A DNA stretch of 64,000 nucleotides from Anaerolineae bacterium (GTDB lineage: Bacteria > Chloroflexota > Anaerolineae > Caldilineales > Caldilineaceae), in NCBI GenBank assembly GCA_030432295.1, contig JAUIHI010000002.1, positions 62,001 through 126,000 on the forward strand. Direction: 5' to 3'. Under the pieces are notes generated by a model. The model was not told the origin of the DNA, made no database searches, and saw nothing but the letters and a program-made list of their open reading frames with translations. The position numbers and the translations under genes were made by a program. The first letter of the stretch is position 1; each line of letters starts with the position of its first letter. Of this stretch, positions 23,883 to 56,013 are shown piece after piece.

Positions 23883-25364
23883 CTAAAGGCCCTTCTGCCA
23901 GGGGTTGCCGTAGAGATAATTACCGATTGCGTCCGGGTCGTTGGAAAAGTAAAATTCGCGCAGATAATTGGTTATCTCGTCCGCTGTCAGATACCCATTC
24001 CGATTCACATCCAGACGGCGAAAGTTGCTGAAGGCGTCCATCTCCACTCCTATTGCTACCGTCCACGCCGCATATTCCTGGACGGAATAGAGGCCGTCCT
24101 GATCCCTGTCAAAAAGCTGAAAATGAACCTGTGCGCGTTCGCTGATGACGCGCAGTGTATCCCGTCTACCCTCTGCTGTCTCCTGAGCTATCGCCTTCAT
24201 CAACTGTCCCCAGAAGGCGAGCCACCCCTCCAGAAAAATGCTGTTACATTCACAGTCAGGCACCAAACCACCTTCAATTCTGCTGTGGCTTTGAAGACTC
24301 CGCCACTGCAACTGCAGATCGCCCAATACCTGTTGGTAGAGGACGGAATGGGGCGGCAGAGAACGGAAGACGGCCCCTTTGTCCAGGTATCGTTGAAAAT
24401 CCTGCCACTCAATCCTGCCATCCCGATTGCAGTCAGTAATCTGGAACAGATAGCGCAACTTTTCGCGCTGAAGGATGCCCATGACCGCGCTCCTGAGCAG
24501 TCCAGGCGGTTCGGACAACTCGGCGGGCGGGCAGGCAAGCCGGGGAAGGAAAGGGAGTGGGCCAGAGGCCGTTGGCGCGACAGGGGTTGGTGATGTGGGC
24601 AGGGATTGACCCGCGCGAATGTGTGCCCAGAGAGTTCCCAAATCATCCCAGGAGTGGACGTTCAATTCAGGTTTCAACTGCTCTGCATACGCATAGTACT
24701 GGCGCAGGGCCGCGTCGGGTTGGCCTGTATCCATATAGAGCAATATCAACTGCTGGTGCGCCACCTCGTGGAACGGGCTGACTGAGAGTATCTTTTTCCA
24801 GCTCACAATCGCGTCCAGGGGACGTTGACGCCTGGTTTCGATTTCGCCCGTCTGCGCCAACACACCGATCAGTTGATTCCGCAAAGAATCTTCCTCCAGC
24901 GTCTGCCACATTTCAAACTCAGGACAGTCGGACAGGCTGAACCCCATCATAAAATTGTCCTGGTAAAGAGCGATCGCCTCCTGCAAATATTGGACACACG
25001 CCCCACAAGTCTCGGCCACGGTGTGATCGTGGGTGGCGGATAACGCCAGCAGTTTCTGAAAATGGCCTATATCGCAGTAGAAATCGTTTTGGATATTGAG
25101 CGAAATCTCCAGACGGTTGGTATGTAGCCAGGGTTTCAGGCTGGATCGGCGCAGAACGTAGAGTGTGCGACGCAGATTGGCCAATGCGGAGTCGCGTGTA
25201 TAGCCGGGCCAGAAAAGGCTGGCCAGGGTTTCCCGGCCATGGCCTTTCCCCGTAACAGCCAGATACACCAACAATCCTATCGCTTTTTTTTGCTTCAACA
25301 GAACAGGTTGTCCATTGACCTCGATCTGGGGATAGCCGAAAAGACGGAGTCTGAACCGTTCCAA
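23883..25364 (-). CDS. BTAD/SARP regulator fused to a calerythrin-like EF-hand domain (copy 1)
   Basis: 493 residues from a TTG start (MERFRLRLFGYPQIEVNG). Residues 1-95 look like an OmpR/SARP-type DNA-binding domain (LASLFWPGYTRDSALANLRRTLYVLR), and about 100-250 like the BTAD helical domain. After a Pro-rich linker comes an EF-hand domain: DCNRDGRIEWQD, DRDQDGLYSVQE and DVNRNGYLTADE fit the DxDxDG..E loop. The tail FYFSNDPDAIGNYLYGNPW matches the end of calerythrin-type bacterial calcium proteins. The fusion implies a cytoplasmic calcium-responsive transcription activator (inference). It is divergent from the NHL gene at 25797. RBS GGGAG lies upstream of the TTG. Confidence 0.85.
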   Translation of the reverse strand: MERFRLRLFGYPQIEVNGQPVLLKQKKAIGLLVYLAVTGKGHGRETLASLFWPGYTRDSALANLRRTLYVLRRSSLKPWLHTNRLEISLNIQNDFYCDIGHFQKLLALSATHDHTVAETCGACVQYLQEAIALYQDNFMMGFSLSDCPEFEMWQTLEEDSLRNQLIGVLAQTGEIETRRQRPLDAIVSWKKILSVSPFHEVAHQQLILLYMDTGQPDAALRQYYAYAEQLKPELNVHSWDDLGTLWAHIRAGQSLPTSPTPVAPTASGPLPFLPRLACPPAELSEPPGLLRSAVMGILQREKLRYLFQITDCNRDGRIEWQDFQRYLDKGAVFRSLPPHSVLYQQVLGDLQLQWRSLQSHSRIEGGLVPDCECNSIFLEGWLAFWGQLMKAIAQETAEGRRDTLRVISERAQVHFQLFDRDQDGLYSVQEYAAWTVAIGVEMDAFSNFRRLDVNRNGYLTADEITNYLREFYFSNDPDAIGNYLYGNPWQKGL

Positions 25365-30855: not shown

Positions 30856-32328
30856 CTATCTCTCCTTCGACCAGGGGTTGCCATAGAGATAGTTGCCCAC
30901 CGCGTCCGGGTCGTTGGAGAAGTGAAATTGGCGCAGATAGCCGCGTATCTCATCCAGTGTCAGATAGCCGTCTCGATCTCTGTCCAGACGGCGGAAGTTG
31001 CTGAGGGCGTCCATTTCGCCCCCCCACGCTGTCATCCATTTGGCATATTCCTGGGCCGACAAGAGGCCGTCCCGATCCCCATCAAAGAGTTGAAAGTGGA
31101 TACGCACGCTATCGTCCAGACTCTGGATGGCGGCGCGCTCGCTCCCAATCGTCTGTTGGGCCGTCGTCTGCATTACTTCGCTCCAGAAAGCCAACCAGCC
31201 GTCCAGCGTAACCGATAGTTCCCCCACATTGTTCTGTGCTCTCTCCCCCGCACTTTTGATCCCTGCCCACCAATTCTGAATATCGACCAGTGCTTGACGA
31301 TAGATAGACGATTCGACGGAAACCGGGCCGATGGCCGCGGCCCGGTCCAGATAGCGCTGAAAATCGCTCCACTGAATCTTCCCATCCCCATCCTGATCGA
31401 TGATGCAAAAAAAGTGACACTGTTTCTGACGTTGCAGCAGCCCCAGGGCACTAATCGCCGCTGGCCCGGTTGCTTCCCCAGAGAACGGCGGCGGGTCTGG
31501 CAATGGCGGGGCGCTGACCGGAATGACTGGGCCAGTTGGATGTCCATTCTCCGGCGGCGCGGCGGGGGAGTGGCCGGTTTGGATGCCTTCAAAGAAGCGA
31601 ATCATCTGGCGGGAAGGCAGGGCCGCCAGTTCCTCGTGCAAATCGGCCACGTAGTCCTGGTAGCGGCGCAGGGCCAGGCTGCGTTGCCCGTTGGCCACAT
31701 AGAGCGCCATCACCTGCCGAATTCCTTCCTCGTACAGTGGGTTGACCCCCAGAACACCCTTCCAGCGTTCGATGGCTGAGGCCGGGTCGCCCAGACGGCT
31801 CTCGGCCATAGCCACCTGTTCCATTGCACTCGCCCACTCCTGGCGCAGAATGTCCCCGTTCAAACTTTGCCAGAGATCAAACTCCGGGCAATCTGGCAGG
31901 GAAAAACCGGCCAAAAAATCGTTCCGGTAGAGGGCAAGGGCCGCATACTGGCGCGCCGTACAGTCGGGGCAGACGCTTTCGCTGCTGTGGGTGTGGCCTT
32001 CTGGCACAAGCAAAAGAGAGCGAAATTGGGCCACGTCACAGGCGTCCGCCTGTTCTGTCGTCAGGCTGACCTGAAAGCGATCGACCGCCAGGCCAAAATC
32101 GGCCAGGCCCGTACGCAGGGCATAGAGGGTGCGGCGCAGGTGGGCCAGGGCCGCGGCGGGCGCGTAGTCGGGCCAGAAGAGCGTGGCCAGGGCTTCCCGG
32201 CTCTGCTTCTTGCCGGAAACCGCCAGATAGGCAAGCAGTGCCAGTCCCTTGCGGCGACTGAGGGCGATAGGTTCTTTGTCAATCTCAATACGTGGATAGC
32301 CAAAGAGGAAAATGCGGTAGTGGCTCAA
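30856..32328 (-). CDS. BTAD/SARP regulator fused to a calerythrin-like EF-hand domain (copy 2)
   Basis: 490 residues from a TTG start (MSHYRIFLFGYPRIEIDKEP). It has the same layout as copy 1: winged-helix DNA-binding region with ATLFWPDYAPAAALAHLRRTLYALR, BTAD region to about residue 250, Pro-rich linker, then EF hands DQDGDGKIQWSD, DGDRDGLLSAQE and DRDRDGYLTLDE. The tail is FHFSNDPDAVGNYLYGNPW. The loops are closer to canonical than in copy 1. It is divergent from the NHL gene of cassette B. Both copies lack the NTPase and TPR parts of AfsR. Confidence 0.85.
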   Translation of the reverse strand: MSHYRIFLFGYPRIEIDKEPIALSRRKGLALLAYLAVSGKKQSREALATLFWPDYAPAAALAHLRRTLYALRTGLADFGLAVDRFQVSLTTEQADACDVAQFRSLLLVPEGHTHSSESVCPDCTARQYAALALYRNDFLAGFSLPDCPEFDLWQSLNGDILRQEWASAMEQVAMAESRLGDPASAIERWKGVLGVNPLYEEGIRQVMALYVANGQRSLALRRYQDYVADLHEELAALPSRQMIRFFEGIQTGHSPAAPPENGHPTGPVIPVSAPPLPDPPPFSGEATGPAAISALGLLQRQKQCHFFCIIDQDGDGKIQWSDFQRYLDRAAAIGPVSVESSIYRQALVDIQNWWAGIKSAGERAQNNVGELSVTLDGWLAFWSEVMQTTAQQTIGSERAAIQSLDDSVRIHFQLFDGDRDGLLSAQEYAKWMTAWGGEMDALSNFRRLDRDRDGYLTLDEIRGYLRQFHFSNDPDAVGNYLYGNPWSKER

Positions 32329-37902: not shown

Positions 37903-40900
37903 CCTCCACACTGGCTGATCCCGTCCGATCCGGGCCGTATTTGGAAGCACTCACTCCTCTGATCAGACCCGGCCAACAATTCCGCCACCATTCGATCCAC
38001 CGAACCTGTCCCCACTGATTCCATAGGACGGGGGCCGGAGCCGAAGATCGACAAATACTCCTTGGCAGGGGCCAGGCTGGACAGCAGGGCCGCGGCCCGC
38101 TGGCGGAAGATGGATTGGAGGGGCAGTTCCTGCAAGACCAGAACGAGCAGGTCCACCGCCTGTTTGGCCAGGGACGCCTTCTCCATCAAAGCCGAAATCC
38201 CCATACTCTCTGCCGCCAACAGGTGGGCCAGATAGACCAATACCTCCGCCTGGAGGGGACGCAGGCCAGTCTCCACAGCCAGGGCCAAACTCTCGCGCAG
38301 CCAGGCCCGGGCCTGGTCCAGTCGCCCCGTCTCCCAGCAGATGTGGGCCAGCCCGTTGAGACAGGTGACGATCCCCCGGCTGAAATCCACCCGACGGGCC
38401 AGGGCCAGCCCCTCTTCCAAAACCGGCTGGGCCTGGGCAAAATCCGCACAGTCGATGTGTACCAGGCCCAGGACACTCAGCGTCGCCGCGATATGGATGG
38501 GGTGCCCCACCCGGCGCGCACGCACAAGACTCGCATCCAATTGTGCCCGCGCCACGGCCAGACAGTCGCCTCCCCGCGCCCAGGCCACCGCGCCCAGCCC
38601 AGTCGAAGCCAGGGCCATCCCAAGTTCATTCCCCACTTCGCAAAAGAGGCCCAGACTCTCCGTATACGCATCTTCGGCACCGGCAAGGTTGCCCAGCAGC
38701 AGATCGCAATAGGCCAACTGATCCAGGGCATAGCCCAGCCCGTCCTGGCTGTTGGCCCGGCGGCTGATGGCGACACAGCGCTGCAGGATGGCCCGGGCTT
38801 CTTCAAAATCGCCAATGGAGTGGGTCAGCTCCCCCAGACGGTAGAGAGCGAACCCTTCACCGGCCCGATTCCCCGCCTGCCGGTTGAGCAGAATACTCTC
38901 GTCCAACATTCGGCGTGCGTCACCAAATTGGCCCCGCCACCCCTCGAACTCCCCCAGAAAGGTAAGACAGAAGGCGGTATCGCCTGGTCTCCCCTGGCTG
39001 CGGGCAATCTCCAGGGCAGCGCGCAGCATCCCCATGCCCGGCTCCATCTCGCCGCTGCTCACTGTAAAGAAGCCTTGCCGGGCCAAGGCCCGACCCAGCA
39101 CAGACTCCCATTCCTGGGCCGCTTCATCTCCCCTGTCCACAGCTTTTTGGATGGCTTGGGCCAGACGCGCAAAGCAATCCCGCCCCTCCGCGTAGCGTCC
39201 TCGGTTGAGGCAGAAGGCAAAGAGACTGGCCTGGGCCTGATCCATCCGGGCAAAGCGCTGGTGATCTGCGGCCCAAGCCCAGGCCGAAAGCACATTGGCA
39301 AATTCCCGATCAACCGCGGCCAGAGAATCTTTCTGCACGGCACTGAAGAAATCCTCCCGGTGGCGGGCCATAAAATTGAGAAAATAGTCGCTGTGTTGGC
39401 CCAGAGCCGCGGCCCGGACCTGGGGTCGGCGGGCGAGCTGCTTCTCGGCAAAGCGGCGCACCAGCGCGTGCATCTGGTAGTGTTCATCCCCGGTCAAATG
39501 GAGAAGCGTCTTCTCCACCAGCCGTCCGAGCAGAGGAAGATCGGCATCCGCCACGCATTGGGCGGCCTCGGCGTGAAAGCTGCCACCGCAGAGGGCAAGA
39601 CGGGCCAGTGCGTCCCGTTCTGCCGGGGAGAGCAGATCCCACGTCTTGCCCAGCACAGCCTGAATGCTGCGATGGCGATCGGGGATAGTCCTGGCCGAAG
39701 TAGCCAGGAAGCCCAGGTCTGCCTCGATCTGGTCAGCGATCTGGCGACAGGAGAGCCGGGAGAGCCAGGACGCCGCCAGTTCGATGGCCAGGGGCAGCCC
39801 ACCAACCAACCGGCAGATGCGCACCACACTGGCCGGGTCCGCCTCTAGTCGAAAGTCCGGGCTGCGTTGGCGGGCATTGCGCACAAAGAGGGCGACCGCA
39901 GGCGAAGCGGCCAGAGCTTTCGGATCGGTGACGTCTGGCAACGGGACGGGCAAGCCCTGGAGGGGGAAGAGCCACTCCTCCCACAGGTGGAGAGGCGTCT
40001 GGGATGTGACCAACAGTTTAAGCTTTTCAGCCCTGGCCAGGAACTGCTCCACCCACCCGGCCAGACCCGGCAGATGTTCGCAGTTGTCCAAAATCAGCAG
40101 CAACTGGCGGGGGCGCAGATGGGCAATCACCTGCTCATCCAGCCTGCGATCGCCGTAGAGGGCCAGGCCCAGGGATTGGGCCACCACACCCATTGCGCCT
40201 TCGGCGGTTTCGGCTTGCAGCAGAGAGGCAAACCAAATCCCGTCCGGAAAGGCATCTCCATAGAGCGGGTTGCCGGATAGCTCCTGGGCCACGGCGTGGG
40301 CCAAATGGGTCTTGCCCACGCCGCCCAGCCCGGTCAATGTCAGAAGCCGACAGTGGGGGTCCGTGAGCCGGGAGAGAAGTTGGGTCAGTTGGCTCTGGCG
40401 ACCCACCAGTGGCGGTTGTTGCTGGTGGAAAGGCAGGCCCGATGTAACAGGCGGCAGAGAAGGCGACGTGACAAGCGGCGGGGAAGGCGATGGGCTGGCG
40501 ATGACGGCCATCGGGTCCGGCTGTCCCAGTGAGCCGTCGCGAATCCGCTCATACAGTTGCATAGTCTCCGCGGCCAGCGGCAGACCCAATTCCTCCTGCA
40601 AAATTTCTTGGCAGCGGGCATAGTGGGCCAGGGCTGCGCTGCGCTGGCCCTGCATGGCCAGGGCCAACAGCAGGGCACGGTGGGCCTCTTCCCGCCAGGG
40701 ATCGTGGGCCAATTGCTGGTTGGCATAGTGCTGGGCAGCCAGATAGTCTCCCCGCGCCGTAGCCTGGTCGGTCGACCGGGTCCAGGCGGCCATGGCCTGC
40801 TGGTGTAGATGCTGCCGGGTGATCTGTGCCCACTCTTCAAAGGCCGGACTGTCATCGACTGCCAAGCCGTCGAGAAATGGCCCCCGGTAGAGTTCCACCG

Positions 40901-41255
40901 CCTGCTCTGGGGATCCCTGCTGCACATGGGCCAGAAATGCGGCCACATCCAGCCAATGGGGGCCTGCCCGAAGGAACTGTACATCCAGACGGGAGACGAG
41001 CAGAACCTGGTTGCTTGGATTGTCCAGAGTTTTGTTGAGTTGGAAGAGGGCCTGGCGCAGGCTGCGGTTGGCGTCTGCCTGGGGAAAATCGGGCCAGAGC
41101 AGTCCTGTCAGTTTGGCCCGGGAATGGGGCTGGGTAGATTCCACGGCCAGATAGGCGAGGAGGGCCTGAGTCTTTGCGGAATAGAATCGGGGGATTGGTT
41201 CTTCGCCGAGCCGCGCCCGGAATGTACCGAGCAGAGAGAGGGATAGGGTCTGCAT
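37899..41255 (-). CDS. AfsR-like transcriptional regulator: BTAD/SARP + STAND NTPase + TPR
   Basis: 1118 residues. The N-terminal DNA-binding domain (LTGLLWPDFPQADANRSLRQALFQL) is followed by a BTAD domain to about residue 250. An NB-ARC-type NTPase has Walker A GLGGVGKT and Walker B LLLILDNCEHL. A long TPR-like helical region (GDFEEARAILQRCVAIS and similar) follows. AfsR-type proteins activate secondary-metabolite genes. It is divergent from the beta-helix gene at 41562, and a perfect 11-period repeat lies between them. Confidence 0.9.
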   Translation of the reverse strand: MQTLSLSLLGTFRARLGEEPIPRFYSAKTQALLAYLAVESTQPHSRAKLTGLLWPDFPQADANRSLRQALFQLNKTLDNPSNQVLLVSRLDVQFLRAGPHWLDVAAFLAHVQQGSPEQAVELYRGPFLDGLAVDDSPAFEEWAQITRQHLHQQAMAAWTRSTDQATARGDYLAAQHYANQQLAHDPWREEAHRALLLALAMQGQRSAALAHYARCQEILQEELGLPLAAETMQLYERIRDGSLGQPDPMAVIASPSPSPPLVTSPSLPPVTSGLPFHQQQPPLVGRQSQLTQLLSRLTDPHCRLLTLTGLGGVGKTHLAHAVAQELSGNPLYGDAFPDGIWFASLLQAETAEGAMGVVAQSLGLALYGDRRLDEQVIAHLRPRQLLLILDNCEHLPGLAGWVEQFLARAEKLKLLVTSQTPLHLWEEWLFPLQGLPVPLPDVTDPKALAASPAVALFVRNARQRSPDFRLEADPASVVRICRLVGGLPLAIELAASWLSRLSCRQIADQIEADLGFLATSARTIPDRHRSIQAVLGKTWDLLSPAERDALARLALCGGSFHAEAAQCVADADLPLLGRLVEKTLLHLTGDEHYQMHALVRRFAEKQLARRPQVRAAALGQHSDYFLNFMARHREDFFSAVQKDSLAAVDREFANVLSAWAWAADHQRFARMDQAQASLFAFCLNRGRYAEGRDCFARLAQAIQKAVDRGDEAAQEWESVLGRALARQGFFTVSSGEMEPGMGMLRAALEIARSQGRPGDTAFCLTFLGEFEGWRGQFGDARRMLDESILLNRQAGNRAGEGFALYRLGELTHSIGDFEEARAILQRCVAISRRANSQDGLGYALDQLAYCDLLLGNLAGAEDAYTESLGLFCEVGNELGMALASTGLGAVAWARGGDCLAVARAQLDASLVRARRVGHPIHIAATLSVLGLVHIDCADFAQAQPVLEEGLALARRVDFSRGIVTCLNGLAHICWETGRLDQARAWLRESLALAVETGLRPLQAEVLVYLAHLLAAESMGISALMEKASLAKQAVDLLVLVLQELPLQSIFRQRAAALLSSLAPAKEYLSIFGSGPRPMESVGTGSVDRMVAELLAGSDQRSECFQIRPGSDGISQCGG

Positions 41256-48262: not shown

Positions 48263-51200
48263 TCACTTCTGGATGATGCCCTGGAATCCCCGCTCCGCCG
48301 CAGCCGCCAGCAGGGCGCGGTGGCTGGGAACTGCGTGCATGAAGGCCTGGCGGGCTAGTTCGTCGTCGTCCAGGGCCAGGATCTCCCTGTTCAAATGGGA
48401 GATGGCCTTCTCCAGCACGACAGTTGCTCGGTCGTCCCCGATGGCCGAGAGTATATGATAAGAGGTCAAATAGACGGGCATTGGCTCTTCCCCCTGTACC
48501 TGCCCGGCCAGGATAGCCGGCCAGCAGCGTTCCACAAAGAGCAGGGCTTCGTGCAACTCTCCTCGCCGCCAGGCCACCTCCGCCAGCCCAGCCCATCCCT
48601 GATTGAGCAAATGGGCGTGGCCCAGTCTCTGGCGCGCCCCGATCATGGCCCGGTAGTGGGTGGCCGCGTTGGAAAGCAACCCCTGAGCCACGGCCCTGTG
48701 GCCCAAATAGAGATGGGCATAGGCCCCCCCATCCAAATCCTCTATCTCTGTATAGATGCGCAGGGCGGCTCCTAAGTGAAGTTCAGCCAGTCGAAACCGA
48801 TTTTGGGTCAGGGCCACATACCCCAACCCCTCCAGAGTCATCGCCAAATCTTGTCGTCTCTGCAAGGTGCGCCAAGACGCCAGATTTTGCTGATGCAGGC
48901 GGCGCGCCCGATCATATTGCCCCAGATGGGTGAGCGAGAGGGCCAAATTGTGGCGAACGTTGTTGCGTAGCACCGGCCTGTTTAAGGCTTCGTACCAGTT
49001 CATCGCCCGTTGATAGTACTCTATGCTGGCAACGAACAGCCCTTCCTCGGTATCGATATTGCCCAATCCCAAATAGATCAACGCTGCTTGGCCCCAATCT
49101 TGCTCCATCTCGGCTAAGGCCAGCCCCTTTCGCAAAAAGTCTCGTCCTTCCTCGAACTGTCCCACCCGCCTCAACGCTACGCCACATTCCGTATAAGCCT
49201 GGCTCAAGAGTCTCCGGTCGGAGAGATCCCGGGCCAGTTCGATGGCTTCGGCCATGGCTTCGGGAACCAAGGCACAGTTGACCTGTAGATTGCGCAGACT
49301 TGCTTGTTCTATCAGTAGATGGGCGAGGGCACGTTGGCGTAGTGGTGTGGCTGGCAGTTGGCGCAGATGGCGAATCGTCTGCCCCAGCAGGCGAATCCCT
49401 TCTGACAAGAGACCCATCCCGGCATAGAACCAGGACAACGGCCCCACTGTGGCGATAATCTCGGCCAGCCACTCTTCCCCGACAGCCCAGTTCCACGCCT
49501 GCTCCATATCCGCGTGACGCAAGTGCAGATCCGCAAAGAGATCGCTGGATGGGTTCTCTTCCAGCAGATCCCGCTGGCTCTGCAAGTAGTGGAGATGCTC
49601 CTGGATATAGGCCCGGCGTGCCTGCTGGTGCAGGTTGGGTTGGGCGATGAGCTGTTCCCGGGCAAAATGGCGGAGCAGTTCGTGGAAGTGGTAGCGGCCA
49701 TCATCCCCACGGCGCAGCCAGAAGTGGGCCACCACCAGGGCCAAGTGGAGGCGGGAGGCCCCGGCCACGGCATAGGCCCGGTTTGGACCGAAAGGCTGAC
49801 GAAACAAAGATAACTGGGCCAGCATCCGCTGTTGATCCCCGGTGAGCTTTTGCCAGGATTGGGCCAAGATATGCCGCATATCCCGCTGGCGCGCGGGCAT
49901 ATCCGCGTGGGCGCTGGTCAACAGATCCAGCCCTTCCTCCACACCCTCGGCCACTTCGGCCAGCGTTAGGCCCTGCAACCAAGACGCTGCCATCTCCAAC
50001 GCCAGGGGATGGCCGTCCACCGCGTCACAGATGCGCCGGATCAGGGGTGCGGTCTTCTCGTCCCACTGAAAACGGGGCTTGGCCCTGCGGGCACTCTGGA
50101 CAAATAGGCGCCCAGCCTGGGATGGCCCTTTCTGGATTGGGTCTGCCTGGGATAAGCCGGTGTCCAGCCCTCCGACCCGGAAGAGCGTCTCTGCATATAG
50201 TCCAAGAGGCTCTCTGGAAGTGGTGACGATATGTAGGTAGGGCATCTCCATCAACCACGTGCTGAGCAAGCTGGCCGCAGATTTCAGGTGTTCCCAGTTG
50301 TCCAGCAGGAGCAAGACAGGATCGTCGCCCCAGCGTTCAGCCAGAAGGGTGCGGATAGAAGCCGTGGGAGAGGGGTGAATGCCCAGAGTTGTGAGCAGAT
50401 GGGCCGTAATCCGTTCGGGCAGGTGGCCCTCCCCATTCGCTTCGAGTTCGGCCAGGGAGACGAAGTAGATGTGGGTGAAGGGGACCTGGGGCGGGTTGTG
50501 CACAGCGGCCCAACCCAAAGCCACCATGAGCTTGGTTTTGCCGATGCCGCCGGGTCCCACCAGGGTGATCAGCCGGTTGTTGGTATTGGTATCGGTGTCG
50601 GCGTAAGCATCGGGATCGGTGTCGGCGAGGAGGCGTTGCAGGGTTGACAGTTCCTGCTCGCGGCCAACCAGAGGAGTCAACTGGGCAGGCAGGTTATGAG
50701 TGAGAGGGTCGAGAGGTGCAAGACGGCCGTCTCGAATCTGCTCGTAGAGCGCTGTGGTCTCGGTGGCCGGGGCGATCCCCATCTCGTCGGCCAGGATGGT
50801 GATGCATCTCTGGTATTGGGACAACGCCTCGGCCGGCTGCCTCTGGGCAGCCCACCAGCGCATGAGCGTACGATGGCCTTCCTCCGCCCACGGCTCCAGG
50901 ACCAGGAGGCGGCGGGCAACGTCCGCGGCCCGGGCGGGATCCCGTTTTTCCAACTGGCGGGCGAGTTGGGTGCAGGCATAGACCGCCAGTTGGTGCAGAT
51001 GCTCCCGGGTGATCAACTGCCATTCCCCCATCTCCTGGGCGTCTGTGGGGTAGAAGGTGGCGAGAAACTCCCCGGCATAGAGATTCAGGCCAGCCGCCCA
51101 CGCCCCTTCGCTCACCCGCTGCTCAAACAGATTGGCGTCGAGGGTGTAGGGCGAGTCGGAACGGAACTGGACCGTCTCCCAGGTGACAGTGAGATAGCGG

Positions 51201-51466
51201 TCGGCCATCTCCCGGTTGCCAAAAATCCGGCGAATTTGGTAGAGGGCCTGGCGAAAGTTCTCCCGGGTTTTGTCCAGGCTCTCTTCGGGCCAGAGCAGGG
51301 TGGCCAGTAGTTCCCGCCCGTGGGCAACATCCCCGTGGCGCATGAGATAGACGAGGAGCGCCCCGGCCTTGCTCATCTTCAGGGTAACAGGACGTCCGCC
51401 AAATCGAATCTGGAGGCTGCCGAGGCTTTGAACAGAGAGCAGCGCCATATCTTCGTCTGTATTCAT
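48263..51466 (-). CDS. AfsR-like transcriptional regulator: BTAD/SARP + STAND NTPase + TPR (second copy)
   Basis: 1067 residues. The DNA-binding region (LATLLWPEESLDKTRENFRQALYQIRR) comes first, then BTAD to about residue 240. The NTPase has Walker A GPGGIGKT and Walker B LLLLDNWEHL. TPR-like helices follow (LGLGNIDTEEGLFVASIEYYQRAM). It is divergent from a small protein and the cassette C NHL gene, with strong SARP-type operators in between, so it is the likely controller of cassette C and the modification genes (inference). Confidence 0.9.
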   Translation of the reverse strand: MNTDEDMALLSVQSLGSLQIRFGGRPVTLKMSKAGALLVYLMRHGDVAHGRELLATLLWPEESLDKTRENFRQALYQIRRIFGNREMADRYLTVTWETVQFRSDSPYTLDANLFEQRVSEGAWAAGLNLYAGEFLATFYPTDAQEMGEWQLITREHLHQLAVYACTQLARQLEKRDPARAADVARRLLVLEPWAEEGHRTLMRWWAAQRQPAEALSQYQRCITILADEMGIAPATETTALYEQIRDGRLAPLDPLTHNLPAQLTPLVGREQELSTLQRLLADTDPDAYADTDTNTNNRLITLVGPGGIGKTKLMVALGWAAVHNPPQVPFTHIYFVSLAELEANGEGHLPERITAHLLTTLGIHPSPTASIRTLLAERWGDDPVLLLLDNWEHLKSAASLLSTWLMEMPYLHIVTTSREPLGLYAETLFRVGGLDTGLSQADPIQKGPSQAGRLFVQSARRAKPRFQWDEKTAPLIRRICDAVDGHPLALEMAASWLQGLTLAEVAEGVEEGLDLLTSAHADMPARQRDMRHILAQSWQKLTGDQQRMLAQLSLFRQPFGPNRAYAVAGASRLHLALVVAHFWLRRGDDGRYHFHELLRHFAREQLIAQPNLHQQARRAYIQEHLHYLQSQRDLLEENPSSDLFADLHLRHADMEQAWNWAVGEEWLAEIIATVGPLSWFYAGMGLLSEGIRLLGQTIRHLRQLPATPLRQRALAHLLIEQASLRNLQVNCALVPEAMAEAIELARDLSDRRLLSQAYTECGVALRRVGQFEEGRDFLRKGLALAEMEQDWGQAALIYLGLGNIDTEEGLFVASIEYYQRAMNWYEALNRPVLRNNVRHNLALSLTHLGQYDRARRLHQQNLASWRTLQRRQDLAMTLEGLGYVALTQNRFRLAELHLGAALRIYTEIEDLDGGAYAHLYLGHRAVAQGLLSNAATHYRAMIGARQRLGHAHLLNQGWAGLAEVAWRRGELHEALLFVERCWPAILAGQVQGEEPMPVYLTSYHILSAIGDDRATVVLEKAISHLNREILALDDDELARQAFMHAVPSHRALLAAAAERGFQGIIQK

Positions 51467-51667
51467 TCTTTAATGCTGATGAAAAATGGCTTTGTATACA
51501 CGGATCAGAGGGAAGACGGATTCAATCTGCGAAAATCTGCGTTATCTGTGTTCTGATTTTCGTCTTTATCGGTGTCAGCCGGTCGTGTTGCCTGTTCAGT
51601 AATCCGTACCTGAGTCCATTGCGAGAAGGTCAATTTTACAGCAAGAGACGCAAGGAACGCAGAGAAG

Positions 51668-51699
51668 TTCACGATTAGTTCACGCCCATCGAATATCAT
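51668..51699 (+). promoter_or_regulatory. SARP-type promoter A
   Basis: TTCACGATTAGTTCACGC (51668-51685) holds heptamers TTCACGA and TTCACGC at an 11-base period. Eight bases after it comes a -10-like TATCAT (51694-51699). The same 18-mer recurs at 51937. Repeat period and 8-base distance to the -10 match the architecture known for Streptomyces SARPs. The predicted transcript would start near 51706. A 23-codon frame (MQAISQPSYTPLLPAGG...) lies at 51735-51806 but is too weak to call. Confidence 0.65.
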
Positions 51700-51936
51700 C
51701 TCCCTGTGTCCGCCATAATCTGACCCACATAACGATGCAGGCCATCTCTCAGCCAAGCTACACCCCCTTGCTACCGGCGGGTGGGAAGGAAGCAGCCAGT
51801 GCATGACGCTATTTTATACCATGAACGGGAAGGCCCCAATATGGAAAACAGCAACCTGGCAAAGCCAGATCTGCGCCAATGAACCAACGCCGGTCTCTTG
51901 CAAAGCGACCAGACACGAATGAATTCGCCCTGTCCA

Positions 51937-51968
51937 TTCACGATTAGTTCACGCACAGAGTCTACTCT
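51937..51968 (+). promoter_or_regulatory. SARP-type promoter B, probably leaderless
   Basis: An identical TTCACGATTAGTTCACGC at 51937-51954 is followed after 8 bases by TACTCT (51963-51968). The expected start of transcription, about seven bases after the -10, falls on or next to the ATG at 51975, which has no Shine-Dalgarno sequence. Flanks differ from promoter A, which argues for selection on the 18-mer and spacing. The remainder of 51467-51974 contains no other recognisable feature. Confidence 0.65.
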
Positions 51969-51974
51969 CTCTTC

Positions 51975-52181
51975 ATGTCCCATCACCATCCGTCCGACGC
52001 CACGATTCAGCCTGGCCATCAACGATACCATTCCCTCTTGCTGCGCTACTGGCGGGAAGATGAAACAGTGGTCTGGCGCTATGTGGTTCAGGACCTGGGA
52101 AACGGTGAACAGTACAGCTTTGCCAATATGGACCTGCTGATTGCTTTTCTCTATCAGCAGATGGAAAGCCAGGCCCAGTAG
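51975..52181 (+). CDS. Small protein of unknown function, cassette C
   Basis: 68 residues. The His-rich start is MSHHHPSD. The pattern RYWREDETVVWRYVVQDL...GEQYSFANMDLLIAFL looks like a compact beta-strand/helix domain of the type seen in short bacterial proteins whose WR...G..F..L pattern recurs. The family name is not known to me. No Shine-Dalgarno sequence is present, but SARP-type promoter B predicts a leaderless mRNA starting at this ATG. It lies upstream of the NHL gene of cassette C. Confidence 0.65.
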   Translation: MSHHHPSDATIQPGHQRYHSLLLRYWREDETVVWRYVVQDLGNGEQYSFANMDLLIAFLYQQMESQAQ

Positions 52182-55133: not shown

Positions 55134-55262
55134 GGGGAAGCGATTGAGAGATTGAGAGATTAGGAGATTGATGCGTGTCAATCGCCCAATCTCCAATCTC
55201 CCAATCGCTTGTCCAACAAACAAATCTCCCATTCATCCAATCTATTCGGAAGAGAATCAATC

Positions 55263-55616
55263 ATGAACCGAAACGCGACTGAAACCCAACTGATCGACAA
55301 AGCAGGCACAGACTCCGCCTTCCGGCGTCGCCTGCTGGCAGACCCCAGAGCCGCCATTGCCGAAATGCTGGGCATGCCCCTGCCGCCGGGAATGGAGATC
55401 ACCGTACTGGAAGAGCAGCCGGGGCAGCACTACCTCGTCCTGCCCCCGGCCCCGCCGAACCTGGACGCCCTGCCCCTGGACGAACTGGATATGGCCCTGG
55501 TCGGTGGCGGGCGCACCCTGCGACCATATTGGGTTAATGCATCCCCCAAGAACCAAATGGGGGGAGAACGTGCCTTCGGCAGACGAGCCAAAAGCGCATC
55601 CAACGCTTCCTGCTGA
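55263..55616 (+). CDS. NHLP-type RiPP precursor peptide 6 (cassette C)
   Basis: 117 residues from the ATG at 55263 (MNRNATETQLIDKAG). Leader: DSAFRRRLLADPRAAIAEML, VLEEQPGQHYLVLPPAPP, LDMALVGGG. The core begins RTLRPYW, is Lys/Arg/Asn/Ser-rich and ends SNASC, with one Cys. RBS GGAAGAG. The upstream in-frame Met at 55209 lies in a low-complexity repeat and is not used. Confidence 0.88.
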   Translation: MNRNATETQLIDKAGTDSAFRRRLLADPRAAIAEMLGMPLPPGMEITVLEEQPGQHYLVLPPAPPNLDALPLDELDMALVGGGRTLRPYWVNASPKNQMGGERAFGRRAKSASNASC

Positions 55617-55656
55617 CCTGCTCACCACTCTATTCATCCAAAAAGGCCTACCCATC

Positions 55657-56013
55657 ATGACAATCATTACCCCATCTCGCCAGGAAATCGACGCCCGCAT
55701 CGTTGACTGGGCCAACACAGACCCCGCCTTCCGCCAGCGCCTGCTGGACGACCCCAAAGCCGCCCTGGCCGAAATGCTGGGCATGGCCCTGCCGCTGGGA
55801 ATGGCCATCACTGTGCTGGAGGAGCAGCCGGGCCAGCACTATCTGGTCCTGCCCCCGGCCCCGCCCAGCCTGAACGCCCTGCCTCTGGACGAACTGGATC
55901 TGGCCCTGGTCGGCGGCGGGCGGACCCTGCGACCGATACTTTTCCCCTGTGGCATGCGCAATACAAGAGCCGCCAATCGTCCTGCAGGAAATACATCCCA
56001 GAGTTCCTGCTGA
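55657..56013 (+). CDS. NHLP-type RiPP precursor peptide 7 (cassette C)
   Basis: 118 residues from the ATG at 55657 (MTIITPSRQEIDARI). Leader: DPAFRQRLLDDPKAALAEML, VLEEQPGQHYLVLPPAPP, LDLALVGGG. The core begins RTLRPILFPCG and ends TSQSSC, with two Cys and several Ser/Thr. An upstream open frame overlaps precursor 6 in another phase and is spurious. It is followed by the cassette C GNAT. Confidence 0.9.
   Translation: MTIITPSRQEIDARIVDWANTDPAFRQRLLDDPKAALAEMLGMALPLGMAITVLEEQPGQHYLVLPPAPPSLNALPLDELDLALVGGGRTLRPILFPCGMRNTRAANRPAGNTSQSSC

Follow-up and report, generated by a model that had tools for sequence, protein, structure and literature searches.

Putative SARP-type operators of a divergent AfsR-like regulator, and a regulator-small-gene module that very probably recurs across Chloroflexota

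The window, the whole 64,000-nucleotide stretch of Caldilineaceae DNA analyzed here, holds a gene for a large regulator on the minus strand and, reading the other way, a 68-residue gene and a gene for a secreted NHL-repeat β-propeller protein; two copies of the 18-mer TTCACGATTAGTTCACGC precede the small gene (Table 1). The sequence-only reading that drew attention to this region had claimed both copies, each with heptamers at an 11-base period and an 8-base gap to a −10-like hexamer, and all of this is borne out by the sequence. Matches to the 18-mer with up to three mismatches averaged 0.03 in 100 dinucleotide shuffles, none of which reached two. The genome scan proposed at the same time found exact copies at these two sites only, both in the window, in 6,718,307 bases; at three mismatches, three other places in the genome match, as against two for a reversed control pattern. 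We looked for a regulon of the exact operator spread over the genome and found none. The heptamer pair is identical in site 1 and agrees at 6/7 positions in site 2, the gap is 9 nt when counted from the heptamer in the family register, and at site 2 TACTCT is followed by six bases and then the ATG. Direct repeats with a period of 11 or 22 bp, one mark of a SARP promoter, are present in the window and in the family, and the other, a gap of about 8 bp between the 3′ repeat and the −10, is seen here as the 8 bp that follow the 18-mer. TACTCT is a poor −10, which counts against the SARP explanation. The nearest −35-like hexamer at site 2 is TTCACG with a 20-bp spacer (measured by hand), so the promoter looks activator-dependent.

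Table 1. Features of the regulator-small-gene locus (positions are those of the window)
Feature	Position	Strand	Basis or remark
AfsR-like regulator, 1067 aa: winged-helix, BTAD, NACHT/AAA-type NTPase, TPR	48263-51466	-	Pfam, profile
Predicted recognition helix, residues 67-77, TRENFRQALYQ	51236-51268	-	AfsR alignment and covariation window
Operator copy 1, family register, GTTCACG-atta-GTTCACG	51667-51684	+	putative, sequence
18-mer TTCACGATTAGTTCACGC, copy 1	51668-51685	+	
−10-like hexamer TATCAT, site 1	51694-51699	+	spacing as in family profile
Decayed 5′ part of the 68-aa gene	51699-51845	+	banded alignment; GTG 51706 as the former leaderless start
Operator copy 2, family register, ATTCACG-atta-GTTCACG	51936-51953	+	putative, sequence and orthologous site (L026/L090)
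18-mer TTCACGATTAGTTCACGC, copy 2	51937-51954	+	
−10-like hexamer TACTCT, site 2	51963-51968	+	expected transcription start 51975 or adjoining (inferred)
68-aa small-protein gene, apparently leaderless, new family	51975-52181	+	family profile, pN/pS
Secreted NHL-repeat β-propeller protein, 937 aa	52320-55133	+	Pfam NHL, 205 bits

The regulator matches Pfam BTAD at 61.7 bits (1.3e-16), TPR_12 at 53.8 and NACHT at 26.8 (cut-off 26.7), with Trans_reg_C at 20.0 bits, below the Pfam cut-off. A profile built from 28 of its relatives matches AfsR (8hvr, 8k60, 8jke; the AfsR match is at 2.9e-22) and EmbR (2fez), and the alignment spans both the winged helix and the BTAD of AfsR. A winged helix followed by a BTAD, with NTPase and TPR parts toward the C terminus, is the plan of a large AfsR-type SARP; the score against the NCBIfam AfsR equivalog NF053617 is 36.7 bits for a cut-off of 1430, and we therefore call the protein AfsR-like, not AfsR. 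In the alignment, with residues counted by hand, Q73 of the regulator falls at AfsR T88 and Q77 at AfsR R92; E69 and Q73 occupy the specificity columns 63 and 67 discussed below. The BTAD domain, the AfsR/EmbR profile match and the covariation between recognition helix and operator all favor the earlier proposal that this protein binds the two sites. BTAD matches are few in the 6.7-Mb genome, 27 in all, and a divergent site of this type stands at 9/27 of these genes, as against 0-1 in shuffles, so the promoter type is not confined to small-gene modules; that no more than nine carry one counts against the SARP explanation. Three more BTAD regulators lie in the window, at about 24618-25076, 31582-32040 and 40539-40907, all on the minus strand.

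The 68-residue reading frame has no Shine-Dalgarno-like sequence directly upstream, just as had been claimed. Because its ATG stands 6 nt after the −10, transcription would begin at or beside the A of the ATG, and the leaderless reading gains support from an orthologue in another genus (L026/L090), which has the arrangement TTCACAATTAGTTCACGC-8-TAGCAT-6-ATG: 17/18 operator bases, the spacing and the leaderless start are kept, and the recognition helix of its regulator, RENFRQALYQIRR, is identical. Leaderless genes have been predicted in 4/12 Chloroflexi genomes and amount to about 4.7% of genes (PMC3160421, available portion). In the small-protein family leaderless starts are a minority: in 5/107 operators the ATG follows the −10 by exactly 6 nt, which looks like an excess over chance; any in-frame start at 4-9 nt occurs in 7/107, about the chance expectation (by hand), and a leaderless start as a family-wide rule was rejected on that count. 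The nearest orthologue of the protein is 73% identical, and the comparison gives pN 0.14 and pS 0.49, which places the frame under purifying selection. No Pfam or NCBIfam model matches the protein. AlphaFold2 predicts three strands and one helix (mean pLDDT 81.1, pTM 0.60); Foldseek returned no match to this model at E 0.001 or better and the best VIA-align Z was 4.8, no convincing structural relative, so we assign no fold. The family profile reached only E 0.26 against the PDB, PHROGs gave nothing useful, and there was no match among the phages or plasmids searched. A resemblance to the plant AP2 domain came to mind and was supported by no search. The frequent place of the small gene beside the regulator suggests that its product may be a feedback or adaptor protein.

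Site 1 calls for a different account. The two sites had been described as duplicated operators with different flanks. The upstream flanks are indeed unlike, but the DNA 3′ of site 1 aligns with the DNA 3′ of site 2: a banded, anchored alignment scores 28.5, whereas 250 shuffles reach at most 17.0 and 250 random segments of the window at most 19.0; the margin is thin in an unbanded comparison (31 versus 30.5 for the best of 2,952 random segments). The decayed copy has 109 matches and 26 mismatches to the gene in aligned columns, with many gaps, and its GTG is as far from the −10 as the ATG of site 2, in a frame that stops after five codons. This decayed copy makes the pair of sites a partly decayed tandem duplication. 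Both operators are present, then, but site 1 is most likely the promoter of the decayed tandem copy, a remnant of the duplication; as an independent second target, or as one half of an independent double operator, it was rejected because the decayed copy follows it. Whether this remnant has lost all function is a closer question. A leftover of tandem duplication, now functionless, would not conflict with the main account of site 2 and would fit both the decayed copy directly 3′ and the single exact site in the orthologous genome, but all 18/18 operator bases and the spacing to the −10 have been kept despite the broken gene copy, and we lean slightly against loss of function. The intact operator hints at continued use; it could serve as an additional promoter upstream or provide more sites for binding.

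Searches with the 68-aa protein alone (E 0.01) found matches in 19/46 genomes of the same family, and a 27-row profile (E 0.001) raised this to 24/46; the same profile matches 93/150 genomes across the class, and a 65-row profile (E 1e-6) matches 17/201 in a phylum-wide draw, 7 of the 17 outside the class. The named loci are mostly MAGs of Anaerolineae, Caldilineaceae and Thermoflexales, with the isolate Ornatilinea apprima P3M-1, whose family member is L265. Two modules (L274, L291) lie on MAG contigs labelled Latescibacterota and Rubrobacter, through horizontal transfer or mis-binning. In set 1 (100 fetched regions and the window) a divergent BTAD regulator stands within 1 kb upstream of 70/109 members, for eight further members the distance is up to 2.5 kb, and 20 members lack one anywhere in the locus. 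The corresponding counts are 41/59 in set 2 (60 regions) and 58/83 in set 3 (80 loci, collected separately), where 18 of the 58 duplicate earlier sets; among members for which 1.5 kb or more of upstream sequence is available they become 67/97, 35/50 and 52/70, the third of these sets overlapping the first two.

In 105/140 cases where a next gene on the same strand was found, it begins no earlier than 60 nt before the stop of the small gene and no later than 150 nt beyond it, and 84/140 downstream proteins start like a signal peptide when judged by a crude rule. Nineteen downstream proteins, chosen from 60 complete ones, were scanned, and 17 have a Pfam hit at 1e-6; the domains include trypsin, clostripain, β-lactamase-fold hydrolases, β-helix, propeller and Ig/cadherin-like types. 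At one locus (L095), the ORF downstream of the small gene seems, by its first residues, to resemble a contractile tail sheath. An NHL-repeat protein is also found downstream in the orthologous module L090, and the one in the window is probably cargo of the same unit as the 68-aa gene. Beyond it lies an NHLP-leader RiPP precursor at 55209-55616 (TIGR03793, 62.3 bits; cut-off 50.9), and after it a second, apparently similar reading frame falls within 55357-56013.

The SARP promoter layout that the sequence-only reading had proposed for this locus is supported by what stands at relatives of the 68-aa gene beside such regulators, namely heptamer repeats at an 11-bp period before a −10. Exact repeats of this kind occur in 40/68 non-redundant divergent intergenic regions of set 1 (41/69 when one masked run is counted). 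Most other periods give 1-6, period 22 gives 10 and shuffles give 1-4, and the result was replicated at 21/41 in set 2 and 27/40 in set 3. One locus with a masked N run (L153), one redundant intergenic region of set 1 and the 18 duplicates of set 3 were dropped. Modules lacking an exact repeat (28/68, 20/41 and 13/40) count against the SARP explanation. When 27 sequences are aligned on the −10, identity at lag 11 is 0.89-1.00 in exactly seven columns and at most 0.6 outside them. Among the 69 members without a divergent BTAD regulator within 1 kb, 21 have an exact period-11 repeat upstream, as against 2-6 repeats at other periods from 8 to 15. The heptamers themselves vary by module (TATCACG, TGTGACG, CCCCACG, GGAAACG and CAAATGA are examples), and in the five genomes searched exact operators stand only in front of these modules: besides the two copies in the window's own genome there is one each in G042, G066 and G151 and two in G128, both before family members. 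Near-matches with one mismatch (control in brackets) number 2 (2) in G042, 0 (2) in G128, 3 (0) in G066 and 2 (0) in G151. The two G128 modules, L157 and L150 (G128:C824, G128:C859), have the exact operator TATCACGTTTTTATCACG in common, as after recent duplication.

The sites lie between two divergent genes, and binding across the −35/−10 region could block the polymerase, so one may ask whether the regulator binds them but represses, or merely autoregulates, the divergent promoter pair. We think this unlikely. The geometry is that of the activator AfsR (PMC10936776, available text), and the −35 region, as noted, has an activator-dependent look. A repeat with a −10 at 8-10 nt and a score of at least 10 faces the small gene in 28/68 intergenic regions and the opposite direction in 1/68 at equal score, and in all 10 shuffle sets the count was zero.

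Across genomes, regulators with common helix residues tend toward common operators. After correction by regression for overall domain identity, and with only pairs of no more than 55% identity and a repeat of at least 6/7 taken, the 10-column window from column 61, the start of the recognition helix, was the best of 232 for operator similarity among 131 pooled pairs. In the pooled data column 63 had the largest effect size among 204 variable columns and the fourth-highest z-score, and for common residues at 63 and 67 the observed value was reached in 0/2000 permutations. The helix window also came first in set 2 alone and in set 3 alone; against it, columns 49-58 and not the recognition helix lead in set 1 alone, and column 63 is 23rd by z-score in set 2 and again in set 3. 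Per-base mutual information and a Mantel test on set 1 gave little (r 0.05 for the DNA-binding domain, 0.16 for the BTAD), the signal being clear only with a register-free measure of operator similarity. By alignment, numbered by hand, column 67 is AfsR T88, which contacts a base (PMC10936776, available text), and column 63 is AfsR A84, one turn earlier. Four residue-to-operator rules were fixed before the held-out sets 2 and 3 were fetched. H63 predicted TGAC (P1) correctly in 2/2 and 5/6 cases, 7/8 in total, and the rule for T/E63 (P2) in 1/2 in set 2, with no case in set 3; Y67 for CCAC (P3) found no case in set 2 and failed in set 3 (0/2), and N63 for AAAYG (P4) held in 8/10 cases in set 2, versus 1/31 among others, and failed in set 3 (0/3), for a total of 8/13. 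Given this mixed outcome, the helix-operator code, as it can be read from these sequences, is real in outline and incomplete in detail.

PhoP/PhoB-type regulators also bind 11-bp repeats, of GTTCACC type in actinomycetes, and the GTTCAC core presumably resembles the actinomycete PHO unit. That the repeats are PHO-box-like sites of such an OmpR-family response regulator rather than of the neighboring regulator is nonetheless highly improbable: AfsR and PhoP do bind overlapping sequences in Streptomyces (PMC10936776, available text), but the repeat sequence here varies by module and covaries with the recognition helix of the adjacent regulator, GTTCAC-N5-GTTCAC with one mismatch is only in slight excess in the genome (15 versus 9 for a control), and exact sites occur only in the window.

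We favor a model that is supported by the layout, its conservation, its recurrence across the family and its covariation with the recognition helix. It is highly likely that the sites are SARP-type operators of the divergent AfsR-like regulator and switch on the 68-residue gene, and the unit of regulator, site and small gene very probably recurs across Chloroflexota with a regulator-specific site each time. We posit that a pair of adjacent SARP domains occupies two 11-bp half-sites (GTTCACG and 4 nt each), which end about 9 bp before the weak −10, and that they would stand in for a usable −35 and recruit RNA polymerase; the transcript from site 2 would start at the ATG of the small gene and probably run on into the gene of the NHL-repeat protein, and the NTPase and TPR parts could gate activation by some signal. 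The parts that we infer are the binding itself, its activating and not repressing effect, the point where transcription starts, co-transcription, the signal and what the small protein does.

SARP regulation is familiar from actinomycete antibiotic clusters, and the type of mechanism proposed here appears to be a known one, the form of the module and the small-protein family being what is new. The module differs from AfsR-afsS of Streptomyces coelicolor in that the small gene is divergent from the regulator, as afsS apparently is not; in that the small protein apparently forms a conserved family of its own; and in that operator sequences are particular to each module and the targets precede secreted-protein genes. 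The two systems have in common a large SARP with NTPase and TPR parts and two 11-bp direct repeats beside a weak −10, with a small-protein gene as target (PMC10936776, available text). The same text gives the AfsR site as direct repeats, the 3′ one 8 bp from the −10, in a 22-bp box centered at −29.5; by analogy the pair bound here would be centered at about −28.5 if +1 is 51975 (by hand). In the available portion of PMC5930380, PimR/PimM-type SARP-LAL regulators likewise use heptameric repeats with 4-nt spacers in the regulator's single target promoter, and in their relatives the site lies between regulator and target genes; the main PimR operator there has three heptamers and no overlap with the −35, and the small-protein family is absent from those systems. 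EmbR of Mycobacterium tuberculosis resembles the regulator in its winged-helix and BTAD architecture (2fez, E 2.1e-06) and differs in having an FHA domain in place of the NTPase-TPR part (PMC10936776, available text). A literature search in which subscription journals were thinly covered turned up no study that dealt with SARP operators of Chloroflexota or described this small-protein family.

In a bacterial class whose members are poorly cultured, the SARP mechanism seems to take the form of a repeated module, joined to a new small-protein family and with a link between recognition-helix residues and operator sequence that is open to testing. If this holds, regulator-promoter pairs would be predictable from sequence alone, and the modules would supply insulated activators and a way into the control of the many secreted proteins of these bacteria. 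We suggest, tentatively and with more doubt than conviction, that Chloroflexota may hold a natural and growing repertoire of activator-promoter pairs insulated from one another, in which each AfsR-like STAND regulator acts on one private promoter through 4-7 variable bases set by a few helix residues; the promoter would open a cassette of a β-β-β-α protein, perhaps the regulator's feedback partner, and one secreted protein, so that several surface or secreted proteins per genome could be switched singly.
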